From: a bacterium
GTDB taxonomy: Bacteria > UBP15 > UBA6099 > JAJRTR01
Assembly: GCA_024278215.1 (NCBI GenBank)
Contig: JAJRTR010000111.1
Location: 59,483-123,482 of the forward strand
Reading direction: 5' to 3'
DNA length: 64,000 nt
Positions 2,310 to 64,000 of the stretch are shown here, piece by piece. The translations under genes were made by a program, and so were the position numbers. Under the pieces are notes generated by a model. That model was given only the letters and a program-made list of their open reading frames with translations. It had not been told where the DNA came from and ran no database searches. Each line of letters begins with the position of its first letter. Within the stretch, counting starts at the first letter, position 1.

Positions 2310-2393
2310 GAGCCGCTTGCAAAAGAAACGAGACCGCGCAGTTCGGGGCAATTGCAGCCGGTCACAGTAGAATCAGACTTTCACAAGCGGCTC
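2310..2393 (+). repeat. Short palindromic element, copy D (84 bp)
   Basis: An 84-bp element between rapZ and yvcK. Its ends are inverted repeats: GAGCCGCTTG on the left and CAAGCGGCTC on the right. The right half (about 2348-2393, GCAATTGCAGCCGGTCACAG followed by AATCAGA) is homologous to the right end of the 178-bp elements at 6392 and 24641. The large internal part of the long elements is missing. Its terminal bases differ from the GAGCCAATTG type on both arms while pairing is kept. Confidence 0.75.
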
Positions 2394-4976: not shown

Positions 4977-6167
4977 ATGTTGAAAAAAATGACGATTGAA
5001 GACGTAGACTTCTCCGGCAGGCGCGTCATAGCGCGGGTGGACTTCAATGTGCCGCTCGACGACGACAGAAACATCACGGACGACCTGCGTGTGCGTGCCG
5101 CGCTGCCCACCATAAAATATATCCTCTCACACGGCGCGTCGCTCATACTCATGAGCCATCTCGGCAGACCAAAAGGTGAGCCCGCCCCGTCGTTAAGTCT
5201 AAAGCCGGTCGGCGAACACCTGGCAACATTGCTCGACACCGGCGTTTCTTTTGCTCCGGATTGCGTCGGCCCCGAAGTCGAAACATTGGCGGACAATCTC
5301 AAGCCGGGCGAAATACTTCTGCTCGAGAATCTCCGTTTTCACGCGGGCGAAAAAAAGAACGATCCCGGGTTCGCAAAGCAACTCGCGGCACTTGCTGAAA
5401 TATATGTAAACGACGCGTTCGGCACGGCCCACCGCGCACACGCGTCCACAGCGGGCATTACCGAATACCTCTCACCTGCCGTCGCCGGATACCTGCTGAA
5501 AAAAGAAATCGACTACCTTGAAAATACGCTCGAAAACCCGCGTCGGCCTTTTATAGCACTGATGGGCGGCGCGAAAGTTTCAGATAAAATAATGGTCATC
5601 GAGCGCCTGCTCGACGTCGTCGACGGGATCATCATCGGCGGCGGCATGGCATTCACATTCCTCAAATCGCAGGGTAAGGAAACAGGCAAGTCGATTGTCG
5701 AAGATGAAAAAGTCGACGCCGCGAAACGCCTGCTCGAACTCGCGAAAGAGAAGAATGTCGACCTCGTGCTTCCCGTTGATGTCGTAACGGCAAAAGAATT
5801 CCGGTTCGACTCCGAACATAAAGTCTGCACGGTCGACGACATACCGGAGGACTGGATGGGGCTTGATATCGGCCCGGAAACAGTGAAGCTGTTCGCAGAC
5901 AATATAGCAGGTTGCAAAACAATCGTATGGAACGGTCCGATGGGAGTGTTCGAGTTTGACGCCTTTGCGAGCGGCACACTCGAGTGCGCGAAAGTGATCG
6001 CGCAGACCGATTGCGTATCAATAGTCGGGGGCGGCGACTCGGCGGCAGCCATAAAGAAGATGGGGCTTTCGGAGCGGTTTACACACATTTCCACAGGCGG
6101 CGGCGCGTCTCTTGAGATGCTCGAAGGCAAAAAACTTCCCGGCGTCGAAGCTCTCGACGACAAGTAG
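4977..6167 (+). CDS. pgk: Phosphoglycerate kinase
   Basis: A 396-residue phosphoglycerate kinase, transferring the phosphate of 1,3-bisphosphoglycerate to ADP. Conserved blocks include RVDFNVPLD, SHLGRPKG, LLENLRFHAGE, NDAFGTAHRAHAST, the hinge/ATP region GGAKVSDKI, WNGPMGVFE, and the C-terminal GGGDSAAA and STGGGASLE. Length fits the family. The ATG at 4977 has a strong ribosome site (AGGAGGG). It lies downstream of gap. Its TAG stop overlaps the first bases of a small palindromic motif (6167-6191) that also occurs at 15490-15514. Confidence 0.97.
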   Translation: MLKKMTIEDVDFSGRRVIARVDFNVPLDDDRNITDDLRVRAALPTIKYILSHGASLILMSHLGRPKGEPAPSLSLKPVGEHLATLLDTGVSFAPDCVGPEVETLADNLKPGEILLLENLRFHAGEKKNDPGFAKQLAALAEIYVNDAFGTAHRAHASTAGITEYLSPAVAGYLLKKEIDYLENTLENPRRPFIALMGGAKVSDKIMVIERLLDVVDGIIIGGGMAFTFLKSQGKETGKSIVEDEKVDAAKRLLELAKEKNVDLVLPVDVVTAKEFRFDSEHKVCTVDDIPEDWMGLDIGPETVKLFADNIAGCKTIVWNGPMGVFEFDAFASGTLECAKVIAQTDCVSIVGGGDSAAAIKKMGLSERFTHISTGGGASLEMLEGKKLPGVEALDDK

Positions 6168-6191
6168 CCCGTATATTGCACCAATGCGGGC
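6167..6191 (+). repeat. 25-bp GCCCG...CGGGC palindromic motif, copy 1
   Basis: GCCCG, 15 bases, then CGGGC, beginning at the last base of the pgk stop codon. The same 25-bp layout with 22 of 25 identical bases occurs at 15490-15514. It could be the end of a degraded mobile element or a small extragenic palindrome. Confidence 0.55.
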
Positions 6192-6391
6192 CAAAAATAG
6201 GAAGAATGCCTGTAATACAAGGCGCGGCAAGTGAGTGGTGAGGGAGCAGCCGGTCTCTTGCGTAAAATGCTGGTATATGACCGATCCCGAAACGCCGTCG
6301 CAACGCAGTAGAACAGGCGTTATCGTGATTTTCCGGATTTCTTTGTGAGAAATCCGGGGTAAGCGCATCTACGTGTATTTTGATTCCGATA
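6192..6391. other. Intergenic segment without a gene
   Basis: Non-coding stretch between the small palindromic motif and element A. It holds a perfect 10-bp hairpin at 6333-6357 (CCGGATTTCT, loop TTGTG, AGAAATCCGG) without a T tract on either strand. I see no convincing reading frame here. Confidence 0.5.
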
Positions 6392-6569
6392 GAGCCAATT
6401 GCAAAATTATGTTCGTAGCGAAGTCGAGTGAAATTGTTCAGAGCAAGGCGGAGGGGTAGAATCCTCGCAGGCGTACTTGTAGAGTACGCCGAGGACGATT
6501 TTATGCCGACAACGCAGCTATGGACAATAGTAACCGACCGTAGCAGAATCAGAATTTTGCAATTGGCTC
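6392..6569 (+). repeat. Palindromic interspersed element, copy A (178 bp, full length)
   Basis: A non-coding element bounded by perfect 17-bp terminal inverted repeats: GAGCCAATTGCAAAATT at 6392-6408 and its reverse complement at 6553-6569. The centre contains a strong hairpin around GCGTACT...AGTACGC (near 6471-6489) extended by flanking ATCCTCG/GAGGACGAT pairing. It is homologous over its whole length to copy B (24641-24817). It ends 32 bp before folK. GATA occurs on both flanks, but copy B has the same bases, so I do not claim a target duplication. Confidence 0.85.
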
Positions 6570-6601
6570 GATATGATATTGTTATTTATTGAAGGAGAAA
6601 G

Positions 6602-15438: not shown

Positions 15439-15486
15439 GAGCCAATTGCAGAGAGCCGATTCGGTTGTGGTCGGCTGCAATTGTCC
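15439..15486 (-). repeat. Short palindromic element, copy E (48 bp)
   Basis: Starts with GAGCCAATTGCA and ends with TGCAATTGTCC; the inner part, GATTCGGTTGTGGTCGGCTG, matches the reverse complement of the right end of the long elements (copy B, 24770-24817). It therefore represents only one end of the family, folded back into a small hairpin. Confidence 0.7.
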
Positions 15487-15489
15487 ATA

Positions 15490-15514
15490 GCCCGCATATT
15501 TCACCAATCCGGGC
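15490..15514 (+). repeat. 25-bp GCCCG...CGGGC palindromic motif, copy 2
   Basis: Same layout as 6167-6191 with three base differences. It begins 4 bp after element E, so two unrelated small palindromes lie side by side. Confidence 0.55.
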
Positions 15515-15739
15515 TAAGGTAAAATGTATTGTTTCGCGCTTGTCGAAAACGAATTCCTAGTGCCGGATAAAACGGAAAAGCAGTGGTCGAGTAATAATAA
15601 TATTATCTACTTTCAGTAAATACCGGCTAAAATAATCGGAATCTTTGCGAATAATATATTACAACGAAAACGCCTGTTTACCGGTGCTTTTTTTCCGCAA
15701 TAATTATGAGTAATCTTCAGTATCCGTACGGCAGTTTCA

Positions 15740-24550: not shown

Positions 24551-24640
24551 TGAGGAAGGAAAGGGAACACGGTATTTCACACAGTTATAAGCCGGATTCG
24601 GCATCATGCGGTGCCGGGTTCGTTTAAAAAGGTATAGATA

Positions 24641-24817
24641 GAGCCAATTGCAAATTATGTTCGAAGCGAGATCAAGCGAAATTGTTCAGAAGCAAGGCGG
24701 AGGTACAAAATCACCGCAAGCGTACTTGTGAGTACGTTGAGGATGATTTTGTGCCGACAACGCAGCTGTTGGCAATTGCAGCCGATCGCAGCCGAATCAG
24801 AATTTTACAATTGGCTC
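24641..24817 (+). repeat. Palindromic interspersed element, copy B (177 bp, full length)
   Basis: Full-length relative of copy A. Left end GAGCCAATTGCAAATT, right end AATTTTACAATTGGCTC (one mismatch and one indel between arms). The centre again forms a hairpin around GCGTACTTGTGAGTACG. It lies in the 301-bp gap between the outer-membrane protein and the first fecR-like gene and ends 35 bp before that start codon, as copy A does before folK. Confidence 0.85.
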
Positions 24818-24851
24818 GATATAGAAAGAAAAAAAAGAAGGAGGTAATTGT

Positions 24852-25841: not shown

Positions 25842-26008
25842 TGTACCATATCTTTATCCAGGGCGATTGTTCCCCGGCGTCCCTCCGGGATGCGCGGGAT
25901 TTTACCCATGCCGACTTAGATTTCGTATACAACAAAGGCCGTATGATGACACCAGATAAACACCACAGCAGTTTGAAATACCTGAAAACTAATAACAACG
26001 GAAATTAT

Positions 26009-29000
26009 ATGTTTCAATGTCGCCGCGTTGCTGTCGCGCTACTTGTGTTGCTCTCAATCGTCGCGGCGACACTTGCGCAGGCCGGCGACAGTACGCCTGT
26101 CGGCGAACTCGACAGCGTGCGCGGTCGTGTGATGGTGAGCCGCGCCGGGAGCGTACTGTGGGAAGACGCCGGCAACGGCGCGCTACTTTATAAGGGCGAT
26201 GTTGTGAAAACCCACTCGAGGTCGTCGGCAATGATAAGATTTGTCGACGGCAGTTTCCTCAAGCTTATGCCTGCAGGTAAAATCGTACTCGATCAGGTGA
26301 TTGAAACGACAGGTGTGTCGAGCAATGTCGTAAGCCTGAAGTCCGGCAAAATATGGGTGCAGGCAGGCAGCGACAACGATGTGAACAGGCTGCTTGTCGA
26401 GGCGGCCGGCTCGGTGATGGACACCACGGAAGGCGCGCTCTTTCTCGAGATCGAGCCCGGTCGCAGAAGGGCTTGCCTCGATGTGTTTTCCGGGAATGCT
26501 TCCCTGAGGTCGCTGGATAACCCCGAAGAAACAAGCACCCTCACAAAAAATCAGAGAACCATGCTCGAGGCGGACAACACCGGGTTCAACATCACCGATT
26601 TCGATAATGCTTTCAATACAGACAATGAGCAGTATTCATGTATCACCCCCTTGAAAAAGAAAGAGCCGGTTGTCGAAAAGAAGATTGAAGAGCAGCCCGG
26701 CAACGAACCCGAAGAACAAACAGAAGTAACGCTCCTGATCACGGGCAGAGCCGTAATTGAATTCGCCGGTGAAAAAGACAATCAGAATATTAGCGTTGTT
26801 GCCTTTAGTGAAGAAGGCGAAGAGTACATTTTAATCACGGGGCAGGCGACAATCACCTTCGAAGGCGAAGAAGCGCCGGCATCGGAAATGATGCAGGTTG
26901 TTGATTTTACAGAAACCGGATACGGCCCCGAAGAGGTGATAATCCAGGTTACCCGCCAGGCGACATTAACTTTCAGCGAAGGTGAAGAAGAAGAGGAAAC
27001 AGTAGTCACGGATAACGAAGGCACTGTGGTCTTCACGCCGGAATCATGCACGGCAAACGGGTACGAATGCGCAAGTGAACTTGACTGCTGTTCCGGGATA
27101 TGCTCCGGTAGTGTTTGCGCCGCGTCGGAAAGGTCTGTCCAGTATACGACAATTGTAGTTTCCTCACAGAGCAGTCTTTCGTTCAAATGCCAGGACGCGC
27201 CGACGATATCGGGCGTAAAAGTGGGCGGCGCATCGGCGGCCCGGGGAGATACCGTCGAGATAGAGGGCGGCGAATGCGAGACGGAAAAAAGCGTGAGCGC
27301 CGATTGGAGCGTGGCAAGCTGCGGCACGCTTAAAACCGAATTCAAAGCTTATGACTCGACCGGCGCGGTGCAGCAGACAGAATCCGGCAGCACATTCAAG
27401 ATTACTGCCGAAGCGTCGAAAGTCGAGATCAAGGCGACAGACGACGGCGGCGAATCAACATATAGTTTCAATGTCAAACTGAAAGAACATGAAAGCGTTT
27501 CGACACCGCCGGAAATAACCTCGTTGACTTATGCGGGCGAAACCATCGCCAACGGCGATTCCATCGACGTTACAATAGATTCCTGTGAAGAAGGCTCTTT
27601 CACAATGACAGGCACGGCGAAGTCGCGGTGCTGGGATATTTCATCCGTCAGCGTGACGCAGGACGGCGAAGCGCTGAGCGCGAGCGGTTTCACAGAATGG
27701 ACGGCCACAACGAAAGTCGCCGCGCAGGAAAAACAATCGGTTTTCATTGCAACCGTCACAGACTCGCGCGGAATTCCAAGCAGCGCATACAATTTAACCA
27801 TCAATTTCACCGTCGCTCCCGAGCTGCTCGAACCGCCGAAGATCGAGCAGGTCACTTATAACGAAACATCCGTATCACAGGGAGACACAGTCAGTGTTTC
27901 CTTCGACTCGTGCCAGGCGAAACAGGTGACACTCTCCGGCCAGGCATCCACGGCGTGTGGAACAATAAAGGAAATAAAGGCCACCAAAGACGGCGACAAC
28001 CTCTATACCAGCGGTGAGAGCGAATGGACAGCGGTGGACTCCATCTCGCCGACTGATGAAACCAAAGAGATAACGATCACTGCCGAAAACTCCAGCGGAC
28101 AAACCAGCGACGCCTTCATTTTTTCTGTCGAACCCGCAATAAATGTTTCACCGCCGGTCGCTGCTCTCGAAACGGTCAACAACACAACTATCGAGGATTT
28201 TTACTCGACGTTCAATGTCAACAAAAGCGATCTGGACAGCGGCAAGATGATAATCAAAGGAACCTCCGAAGCCGACACGTGCGAGATTCAGAAAGTCGAA
28301 ATATCACTCGATGACGCCGGCACATGGGAAGCAGTCGAGGGTACATATTCATGGACCTACGAGTTCACACCAAGCGAAGGTTCGTATAATGTCACCGCAC
28401 GCGCGGTCGACATCTTAGGCAACACCTCCGACGACTCGCAAACACTCGAACTCGTATACTCGCCCCTTAGCGACGAGGATATCGTTTTCAATGCCTTCGA
28501 AAAACTCATACAGGCATATCTCGACGAAGACAGCGCCGCTTTTATCGACCTGACTTCGCCGGATTATACCACCAACTACGACAGCGTCGAGGATGTGAAC
28601 CAGCTCGAGACTTCGCTGGACAACAAGTTCCAGGCAAACGAATATATATATCTCAGGTACGACATCGACTCGACAACCGTCACCGGCGACACCGCGAGAG
28701 TAGCTTTCCGCTGGGACAGCGACGTCTCTTCTTCCGGCTATTCACAGTACGGCGTATTCCAGTTTGCTAAAGAAGAAAACAGCTGGATGTTCTACACCGT
28801 CGAGGACGAAAATACTTTTTTGCGGTATACAAGCATTGTCGCGACGATCGATCTTACCTCCGGCGATACGGACCTTGTAGCAGACGAAGAAGACAGCACG
28901 GAAATAACAGCCGAGGTGCGCGACAGCGCGAAAAACTTTATCCGCGACGGCTCGATCGTTTATTTCCAGGTCAGCCCGTCGAACCTCGGTACCATAACAG

Positions 29001-29173
29001 CCTCGGCGGAAACTCTTAACGGCATAGCAAAGGCGACATTCACCGCGGGTAACGAATCGGGCTTTGCGGACATTACAGCCACTTCGGGCGATGTTACTTC
29101 GAGTAAAGTCGAGATCGAACTTCACTACGAACACGCGCCCTGTCCGCCGGATGATGTCGACTGCACACAATGA
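26009..29173 (+). CDS. Giant FecR-domain, multi-repeat exported protein with knottin-like motif
   Basis: About 1054 residues from ATG 26009, which directly begins a signal peptide (RVAVALLVLLSIVAATLAQA); an in-frame ATG at 25943 would add 22 residues. Order of parts: FecR domain (about 30-165); four short beta repeats with the core ITGQATITFEGEE (about 235-395); within them a cysteine motif C-x6-C-x5-CC-x3-C-x4-C (residues 347-370) with inhibitor-cystine-knot spacing; three tandem Ig-like domains of about 100 residues, each with a paired cysteine; a further Ig-like domain; an NTF2-like segment (about 830-935); and a C-terminal Big_1-like domain. Acidic linkers separate the parts. It overlaps the following lipoprotein gene by 4 bp. 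Extracellular or periplasmic; function unknown. Confidence 0.78.
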   Translation: MFQCRRVAVALLVLLSIVAATLAQAGDSTPVGELDSVRGRVMVSRAGSVLWEDAGNGALLYKGDVVKTHSRSSAMIRFVDGSFLKLMPAGKIVLDQVIETTGVSSNVVSLKSGKIWVQAGSDNDVNRLLVEAAGSVMDTTEGALFLEIEPGRRRACLDVFSGNASLRSLDNPEETSTLTKNQRTMLEADNTGFNITDFDNAFNTDNEQYSCITPLKKKEPVVEKKIEEQPGNEPEEQTEVTLLITGRAVIEFAGEKDNQNISVVAFSEEGEEYILITGQATITFEGEEAPASEMMQVVDFTETGYGPEEVIIQVTRQATLTFSEGEEEEETVVTDNEGTVVFTPESCTANGYECASELDCCSGICSGSVCAASERSVQYTTIVVSSQSSLSFKCQDAPTISGVKVGGASAARGDTVEIEGGECETEKSVSADWSVASCGTLKTEFKAYDSTGAVQQTESGSTFKITAEASKVEIKATDDGGESTYSFNVKLKEHESVSTPPEITSLTYAGETIANGDSIDVTIDSCEEGSFTMTGTAKSRCWDISSVSVTQDGEALSASGFTEWTATTKVAAQEKQSVFIATVTDSRGIPSSAYNLTINFTVAPELLEPPKIEQVTYNETSVSQGDTVSVSFDSCQAKQVTLSGQASTACGTIKEIKATKDGDNLYTSGESEWTAVDSISPTDETKEITITAENSSGQTSDAFIFSVEPAINVSPPVAALETVNNTTIEDFYSTFNVNKSDLDSGKMIIKGTSEADTCEIQKVEISLDDAGTWEAVEGTYSWTYEFTPSEGSYNVTARAVDILGNTSDDSQTLELVYSPLSDEDIVFNAFEKLIQAYLDEDSAAFIDLTSPDYTTNYDSVEDVNQLETSLDNKFQANEYIYLRYDIDSTTVTGDTARVAFRWDSDVSSSGYSQYGVFQFAKEENSWMFYTVEDENTFLRYTSIVATIDLTSGDTDLVADEEDSTEITAEVRDSAKNFIRDGSIVYFQVSPSNLGTITASAETLNGIAKATFTAGNESGFADITATSGDVTSSKVEIELHYEHAPCPPDDVDCTQ

Positions 29174-30855
29174 ATTCCTCAGGATTTCCATATAAGCCGT
29201 TTTTCAGGGTGATCGCCCTTGCTGTTCTTGTCGTCTTGTTTTCAGGATGCGGCGGAGGCGGCGGGGGCGGGACTGCCGTTGCTCCCACACCGCCTGCCAC
29301 CGGCGACCCGCCCGTTCAATCCAACTGGTCGCCCGCGAAAAACGCTTACGTCAATACCTCATCTTTTACTCTCACTTTTAATACGGACGAACCGGCAGTC
29401 TGCCGCTGGGCATCTGTCGATGTCGATTTCAGTGCCATGGCTTCGGCCTGCACGACGAGTTATACGCAAAGCCATAGCTGCGCGATCACAGGTCTGAGCG
29501 AGGGCGCCGCATACGTGTATGTCTCGTGCGCCGACAGCGAGGGCGACAGCGACACGAGCGCGACCAATGAGAATATTTCATATTCGGTCGACATGTCCGC
29601 ACCCTCGGTTGCAATCATACTGCCCGAAGCGGACAGCATAATCGATCTTTATGCACGCTCGTCGGACCTGCCCGTTGTCTCAGCCTCCTACAGCGACGAC
29701 AGGTCGGGTATTGACGTTACGTCGCTGAATGTCACCTTTACTGCCATGAACCGAACTATGTCCATAACCAACCTTTTCGGCAAAGACCCCTCGGCCAACA
29801 AGAGCGATTCGCGTACAGACGAATCCGTAAGCGACCCGCTCGCCAGAACATCCGTATCCGGCTTCGCCGCGGGCTCATTCACATCGCCTGCCGCCACATG
29901 GACTGTATCCCACACGGGAAACGGCAACACCCTAAACATACTGGAGGCCGGAAGCGACAGGATTGTCGTGTGGGACACGGCGGGAGCCGGCCTGTGGATA
30001 ATAAACGTTTCCGGCGGCGCGACCACCGAAGTCGTCCTCGGCGCATCGCCATCGTCGGTGGCCGTCTCGGCAGACTCCGGCAGACTCTACGCTGTGTTTC
30101 CCGGCGACACCCGCCTGCACGAATACAAGCTGTCCGATGGAAGCGCCGCAGGCACTTATGATCTGCCCGGCCAACCGGCATTGCTCGCACATAATGCGCT
30201 ACTTGACCGGCTATACATATCCTACGAATCGCGGCTCGAAATCGGCATATACGACTGCGCCGCCGCCTCTTTGTCCGCTGCTGTCACGGTCGCGGCGATT
30301 CCCGAAATACTGGCGGCATGGCCGGGCGGCGACGGTAACATATTGACAATCGCGGATTCGGGCGGCGACTACAAACTCTTTGAAATATCCGACGCCGGCA
30401 CAATCCTGCAATCCGTGTCCGTTACCCTCCAGATTCCAAAAGGCGTTATGGTGGATTCGGACAGCGGATATATCCTGGTTTCCGATTTTTCGTGGGAAAG
30501 AGTTGTTGCAGTTAATATGAGCACCGGCGCGACGACACAGATCACAGTCGGCAATGAACCGCGCAGAATATTCAAAGGCAGCGGCGGTACAGCCTATGTT
30601 GTGAATTCGGGAGACAGGACGATTACGCCGATAGACATGAACACGCTTACAACAGGTGGAGACATCGCCCCGGCCGCGCCCCCCGTTGACGGTGTTTGCT
30701 TAAGCGCAACAGGAGAATGCTATCTCGTCGAAGATGTCTGGGACATTTCGACACAGGTTTCCGTCACAATTACCGCATCTGTGGATGACGCCGCGGGAAA
30801 TACCGGAGACGGCTCCGTCAAAATATACGTGAATCCGCCTGTGCCGGGAGAATGA
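29170..30855 (+). CDS. Lipoprotein with beta-propeller-like repeats
   Basis: A 561-residue lipoprotein. The signal ends in a lipobox VLFSGC followed by a run of glycines, a common flexible linker after the lipidated cysteine. Residues about 45-150 are an Ig-like domain with cysteines; about 255-510 contain YncE/NHL-type beta-propeller repeats (ASPSSVAVSADSGRLYAVF, IPKGVMVDSDSGYILVSDF, GNEPRRIFKGSGGTAYVVNS). The C terminus returns to an Ig-like ending. The ATG overlaps the preceding FecR gene by 4 bp (ATGA), so both are translated together. The acceptor membrane is not certain, but outer-membrane attachment is plausible. Confidence 0.78.
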   Translation: MNSSGFPYKPFFRVIALAVLVVLFSGCGGGGGGGTAVAPTPPATGDPPVQSNWSPAKNAYVNTSSFTLTFNTDEPAVCRWASVDVDFSAMASACTTSYTQSHSCAITGLSEGAAYVYVSCADSEGDSDTSATNENISYSVDMSAPSVAIILPEADSIIDLYARSSDLPVVSASYSDDRSGIDVTSLNVTFTAMNRTMSITNLFGKDPSANKSDSRTDESVSDPLARTSVSGFAAGSFTSPAATWTVSHTGNGNTLNILEAGSDRIVVWDTAGAGLWIINVSGGATTEVVLGASPSSVAVSADSGRLYAVFPGDTRLHEYKLSDGSAAGTYDLPGQPALLAHNALLDRLYISYESRLEIGIYDCAAASLSAAVTVAAIPEILAAWPGGDGNILTIADSGGDYKLFEISDAGTILQSVSVTLQIPKGVMVDSDSGYILVSDFSWERVVAVNMSTGATTQITVGNEPRRIFKGSGGTAYVVNSGDRTITPIDMNTLTTGGDIAPAAPPVDGVCLSATGECYLVEDVWDISTQVSVTITASVDDAAGNTGDGSVKIYVNPPVPGE

Positions 30856-38880: not shown

Positions 38881-38926
38881 ATATCTGTTTGCCTCGTTTG
38901 ACTTCGATAGCTGCTACCTGTCATGT

Positions 38927-38972
38927 AGCCAATCGCAAAATACGATTCGGCCGTGGTCGGCTGCAATTGGCT
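38927..38972 (-). repeat. Short palindromic element, copy F (46 bp)
   Basis: AGCCAATCGCA at the left and TGCAATTGGCT at the right, with GATTCGGCCGTGGTCGGC between them. It matches copy E and the reverse complement of the right end of copies A and B. It lies in the 244-bp gap between murJ and the M28 peptidase gene. Confidence 0.7.
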
Positions 38973-63926: not shown

Positions 63927-64000
63927 TTGTGAGCCGGCCAGGTCCGTTTTCGCGCCGACAACGCAGCTATGGACAATAGCAACCGACCACAGCAGAATCA
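63927..64000 (+). repeat. Palindromic interspersed element, copy C (partial, runs off the window)
   Basis: From TTTGTGAG through GCCGACAACGCAGCTATGG to the last base, it aligns without gaps to the right half of copies A and B; the second half is most like copy A. The left terminal repeat and the first 100 bp are absent, replaced by the end of the glycosyltransferase gene. The right end lies outside the window. Confidence 0.75.

Follow-up and report, generated by a model that had tools for sequence, protein, structure and literature searches.

A high-copy-number family of gene-less palindromic repeats with a hairpin core that recurs across bacterial phyla

The window analyzed here, a 64-kb stretch of DNA, corresponds to positions 59483-123482 of contig C84 in a draft genome of 4.55 Mb (207 contigs). 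Between its genes for phosphoglycerate kinase and FolK (HPPK domain) lies a palindromic element, copy A, and a second full-length element, copy B, precedes a FecR-domain gene. Downstream of the latter (window 25943-30852), two further products are encoded, one of 1076 aa with Big/invasin-like domains and one of 561 aa that matched no Pfam family. A profile built on 28 full copies and run against a search space of 447 kb, with E-values of the matches ranging from 5e-62 to 1e-4, recovered exactly six family sites in the window, at the same places where the original prediction, made from the sequence of the window, had seen a single family (Table 1). The 17-bp terminal inverted repeats (TIRs) ascribed to the two full copies, together with a central hairpin, were found as well; they are perfect over 17 bp in copy A and carry two and one mismatches in copy B. 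With up to three mismatches, the 17-bp end GAGCCAATTGCAAAATT occurs five times in the window, compared with 0.22 expected occurrences. The start codons, placed 32 to 35 bp beyond the full copies, were measured at 32 nt (folK, copy A) and 34 nt (FecR-domain gene, copy B). For the other sites the initial description had to be amended. The copy at 63930 is indeed truncated on its right, but contig C84 stops at 123482 and the contig end, in addition to the window edge, cuts the copy; its left side is degenerate. Among the three short versions thought to retain one end each, the one at 2332-2393 has only the right end, whereas the one at 38927 has both; the site at 15439 is a partial copy with a right end that is additionally joined to the hairpin of a different repeat family.

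Table 1. Repeat features of the 64-kb window (positions count from the first base of the window)
Feature	Position	Strand	Remark
Copy A, full-length element, 178 bp	6392..6569	+	intervenes between phosphoglycerate kinase and folK
Copy A, left TIR, GAGCCAATTGCAAAATT	6392..6408	+	17-bp end search
Copy A, right TIR, exact complement of the left one	6553..6569	-	
Copy A, target-site duplications GATA	6388..6391 (left), 6570..6573 (right)	.	
Copy A, conserved hairpin core, cross-phylum: CTGCGTT...CCTCGGCGTAC...GTACGCCTGCG...CCGCCTTG	6436..6522	-	coordinates via alignment
Copy B, full-length element, 177 bp	24641..24817	+	precedes FecR-domain gene
Copy B, GATA duplications	24637-24640 and 24818-24821		
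Copy B, conserved hairpin core	24685..24770 (C84:84167-84252)	-	covariance-model match
Partial copy, degenerate on the left and cut on the right by the contig end	63930..64000	+	
Partial copy keeping right end only	2332..2393	+	profile search
Partial copy, right end from GCTATGG on, joined to second-family hairpin 15488-15517	15439..15491	-	
Internal-deletion derivative of ~46 bp with both ends	38926..38972 (profile match 38927-38971)	-	
Copy of second interspersed palindromic family	6165..6362	+	starts on TAG stop codon of phosphoglycerate kinase gene

The second interspersed family is ~200 bp long, has the ends TTARCCCGCATATTTCACC...CCGGATTTCTTTGTGAGAAATCCGGGTTA, and also occurs in single-hairpin forms of 30-34 bp (e.g., 15488-15517); 447 kb contained 12 long copies and about 20 short ones. 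On its minus strand, CTGCGTT opposite GCCTTG resembles the outer loop of the core described below, and the tip is different. Truncated elements of the first family joined to a second-family hairpin were seen in the window (15439-15517) and at C160:32974, C160:78739, C84:33252, and C109:7264. The junction always falls between GCTA and TGG of the truncated element, which would fit repeated recombination or insertion at this point.

Many further copies of the first family, alignable at full length, exist outside the window, as the original prediction had anticipated. Their counts rest on 1.357 Mb sampled from the same genome, in which 150 sites were found, 86 of them full length, and the extrapolated totals are ~288 full copies and ~503 copies overall, or 1.48% of the DNA. 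The 17-bp end with up to two mismatches occurs 662 times in the genome (332 + 330), compared with 0 times for the reversed control. Divergence from the consensus, which folds as a full-length imperfect hairpin (-65 kcal/mol), averages 5% (range, 0.6-25%), and internal-deletion forms of 46-107 bp are present, some of them flanked by target duplications. Because many contigs end inside a copy, the assembly probably contains too few of the youngest, identical copies. The proposed colonization of intergenic space by an element without a gene was corroborated, with only 1 of 74 classified full copies lying within a large ORF. The accompanying idea that the copies supply leaders or processing sites is not supported, because they show no strand bias towards neighboring genes (23 sense versus 19 antisense copies between co-directional genes); furthermore, their spacing to start codons is not fixed.

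Evidence for mobility comes from the flanks. An exact 4-bp target duplication was present at 53 of 85 full copies (shuffled expectation, 2.15; maximum, 7), and among the tested duplication lengths of 2-10 bp a comparable excess was seen at 4 bp alone. The flanks contain 68% A+T, compared with 49% in the genome, and the duplicated target sites lean to the symmetric form C|NATW|G. Two copies interrupt a third interspersed family (TGTCAACAAAGAAAAGACGTAAGATGGG...; C199:5016-5377, C130:~600-900, and about 45 further matches); elsewhere in the genome, paralogous versions of this joined site contain TTAT or TTAC only once. These unoccupied paralogous sites are direct evidence for insertion with a 4-bp duplication, and duplications and empty sites together therefore point to a MITE moved by a putative DDE-type transposase. 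The original prediction of a non-autonomous MITE is thus borne out by the high copy number and intergenic location of the element, its 17-bp TIRs and 4-bp duplications, and the unoccupied paralogous sites. Empty sites, which it had proposed to look for among orthologous positions, were recognized at paralogous ones; a transposase with matching ends, likewise proposed as a search target, was not found in 1.36 Mb.

The search for an autonomous IS with matching ends was negative throughout the 1.36 Mb examined, and no such ends lie near any of the three PF01609 genes that this genome contains. Pairs of terminal repeats spaced 1.2-3.5 kb apart in the 1.36-Mb sample were considered as a parent IS and rejected, the enclosed genes being ordinary. 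A 1.8-kb segment of this genome (C175:1696-3518) that is bounded on each side by the terminal repeats of the window family and flanked by identical TTAT sequences encloses a 501-codon gene, FapA/DUF342-like by eye; it is possibly a transposable unit with cargo, or a chance arrangement. Ends of the IS5 superfamily start with GAG and are accompanied by short duplications. The window family is alike in both respects, but it duplicates 4 bp and lacks a detected transposase with matching ends. Copy A gave no match in plasmids, and one Nitrospirota element gave none in plasmids or phages; with only one or two query sequences, these are weak negatives. Viral contigs contained one match.

The surprise of this family is its middle, i.e., a deeply conserved hairpin that many phyla carry in repeats whose ends are not related to one another. 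This core comprises the central ~87 nt of the element. Copy A, used as a query against 97 mostly unrelated genomes, gave one weak match, to a locus with the same internal layout and other ends. The covariance model envisaged in the original prediction was then built (87 nt; 15 copies of the window family plus one sequence from the copy A match) and matched 24 of 386 genomes at E <= 0.001; a second model based on 48 diverse members recovered the core in 45 of the 386 diverse bacterial genomes at E <= 1e-4, including 22 that were new in comparison with the first model. An exact pattern of ~28 fixed bases, for which the chance expectation is well below one according to our own estimate, was found in at least 116 stretches of named genomes. 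They represent at least seven named phyla, i.e., Nitrospirota, Rokubacteria, Planctomycetota, Desulfobacterota, Bacillota, Aegiribacteria, and Acidobacteria. The core-bearing repeats are palindromic, ~105-190 bp long, and their ends are mutually unrelated.

Pairing holds for 89% of the cells in the diverse alignment. Covariation reaches a score of 0.555, compared with 0.142 after shuffling and no more than 0.096 after sliding, and 294 double changes compare with 90 shuffled ones; this alignment was fitted to the model and favors its structure, and arm-to-arm template switching in palindromic DNA also yields covariation, against which only the near-invariant unpaired loops speak. Hardly any variation is seen in the loop bases CTGCGTT / GCCTTG and CCTCRA / CCTSCGG, which are mostly unpaired, and the window family conforms to the loop definition of the superfamily (CTGCGTT/GCCTTG + CCTCRACGTA/TACGCCTSCGG). 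A description of the core was not found in the openly accessible literature searched by motif and by topic; an earlier description under another name is possible. At G049, L062:2137-2223, a second palindromic repeat with the ends GGGAACCTCTGAAAAAGG is present at the same locus and its core layout is identical.

The relatives of the window family differ in how they sit in the genome. In one relative of the same order, the ends have changed (GAGCCAATTGCAAAATT versus AGAGRCTCTAACAAAATG), and two copies have 3-bp TNA-like flanks (TAA and TTA, by eye), a further resemblance to IS5-superfamily elements. The Nitrospirota repeats of ~125 bp have no target duplication, and a co-oriented stop codon ends exactly 2 nt before their GGATG in 33 of 88 cases. 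Because target duplications are absent from these members, the superfamily as a whole is not accounted for by one mode of mobility. At the Nitrospirota loci L091-L205, the outer stem bases differ between copies and remain complementary. Two copies per locus were observed at L201 and L206 (Clostridia / Bacillota), with different outermost stems that are each complementary, unlike fixed transposon ends.

The variation among the 86 copies of this genome was used to examine selection. Private substitutions did not differ between phylum-conserved core sites (0.83 per site), terminal repeats (0.76), and the rest of the element (0.64). Shared variants amounted to 2.31 per site in the phylum-conserved core and 2.68 in the terminal repeats versus 6.42 at the remaining sites (site permutation, P = 0.0009 and 0.0019, respectively), a statistic that counts inherited events and in which few founder lineages could exaggerate the depletion. 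The combination of evenly distributed private and depleted shared variants therefore indicates that copies decay freely after insertion and that multiplying lineages keep their ends and core loops. It argues that the core contributes to propagation and speaks against a host function at each locus; accordingly, loop positions and terminal repeats seem to be selected for propagation, not for the host.

Taken together, we consider it probable that the window repeats are a DDE-mobilized MITE family whose core is a working part in propagation or lowers the cost of the element. The 178-bp gene-less element with its 17-bp TIRs inserts into AT-rich intergenic DNA, where it duplicates 4 bp of the target, and it has reached ~290 full-length copies in addition to derivatives that are truncated or have lost internal parts. 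In the proposed mechanism, a DDE transposase with its gene at another place, perhaps lost or missing from the draft assembly, would recognize the TIRs and act by cut-and-paste with a 4-bp stagger. The core, presumably joined to DDE-type ends in the lineage of the window, could be one of the functional parts on which propagation depends, or else a hairpin of RNA or single-stranded DNA that lowers the cost in spreading lineages; it would not be a host regulatory site at each locus.

An ordinary IS-derived MITE is a possible but doubtful alternative. Its interior would be a remnant of one parent IS family, passed on together with the ends, and the core would owe its conservation to subterminal sites bound by a single transposase family, with ends that diverged faster. 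The DDE hallmarks (4-bp duplications) agree with this explanation, and so do the arms that are still alignable in the same-order relative despite its different ends. However, the ends are unrelated and the target-site behavior is variable across phyla, PF01609 transposase loci in 14 other core-bearing genomes lack the element ends, and the conserved bases are located in internal loops of the hairpin and not in duplex binding sites. A broader reading, which we regard as tentative and rather less likely to be right than wrong, is that of bacteria-wide selfish hairpins. Their lasting unit would be the ~87-nt core, which might persist across phyla and take on different ends and insertion modes because its conserved loops interact with a universal host component, the modes being DDE-type with a 4-bp duplication in the window and post-stop-codon without duplication in Nitrospirota.

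It is unlikely that the core is a structured RNA with a host function, e.g., a 3'-end, antitermination, or processing hairpin, that has spread as repeats. In favor of this reading, the stem covaries around near-invariant loops, and G-T pairs outnumber A-C pairs on one strand (59 versus 18, mostly in a single column). In Nitrospirota, 68 of 98 cores lie at most 90 nt after the end of a sense gene, most often at 24-26 nt, compared with 33 that have the end of an antisense gene on their opposite side. This position may alternatively result from a target preference, which could explain part of the stop-codon placement, because the 5' flank is rich in TAR trinucleotides (50 of 88 versus 4% background). 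Moreover, the genome of the window shows no orientation bias, private mutations are equally frequent at conserved core sites, and Rfam contains no family for the window or for eight core loci up to an E-value of 0.5, beyond tRNAs and a chance microRNA match.

The original prediction had also considered a REP-like family with a REP-associated tyrosine transposase. REP/BIME-type palindromes moved by such an enzyme (HUH, Y1) are a very improbable explanation, and for the window family this reading is largely refuted. GTAG- and CGTC-tagged REPs are 20-40 bp long and carry a tetranucleotide tag; shared traits are the palindromic structure, interspersed occurrence in several phyla, and unpaired stem residues (PMC3733652). 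The element of the window is likewise intergenic and of high copy number, Y1 transposase genes are present in 9 of 12 core-bearing genomes, and the Nitrospirota members lack target duplications. By contrast, the window family has 178-bp elements, TIRs, 4-bp target duplications, and no GTAG-type tag. An element is located near only 2 of 30 Y1 loci, both in the genome of the window and at background density, and Nitrospira moscoviensis has the repeats and no Y1 match. Convergence of GC-rich palindromes without homology is equally improbable, since the palindromic nature of every member alone creates pairing covariation but does not account for 29 of 87 core positions that agree with the superfamily consensus at ~90% or more, including unpaired ones at fixed spacing, or for the exact matches to the 28-base pattern.

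The window repeats are a new MITE family of known type, with terminal inverted repeats, a duplication of fixed length, small size, no gene, and high copy number; a demonstrated parent is the one exception, and the hallmarks of REP/RAYT systems are absent. Prokaryotic MITEs are shorter than 500 bp, mostly intergenic, and gene-less, with TIRs, target duplications, and truncated derivatives (PMC10969869). The window family shares all these traits, but its core recurs elsewhere with unrelated ends, and its parent IS was not found. The Chunjie MITE of Geobacter uraniireducens, as cited in the same review, is 178-235 bp long and alike in size, terminal and direct repeats, and intergenic copies, with one copy in an operon (PMC10969869); it may be a member of the core superfamily. 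In Cardinium, an IS982-derived MITE spread in one bacterial lineage in the presence of an intact parent IS (PMC9769881). Compared by description, both families spread in one lineage, but the parent was not found here.

The usual view of MITEs is that they are what remains of a single parent insertion sequence after decay, and that their middles are dispensable. In the present family the middle is the deeply conserved part, and its looped hairpin is present in about one in nine sampled diverse genomes. What keeps small bacterial repeats spreading thereby becomes a directly testable question, and the core provides a search model for the annotation of intergenic repeats in many phyla.
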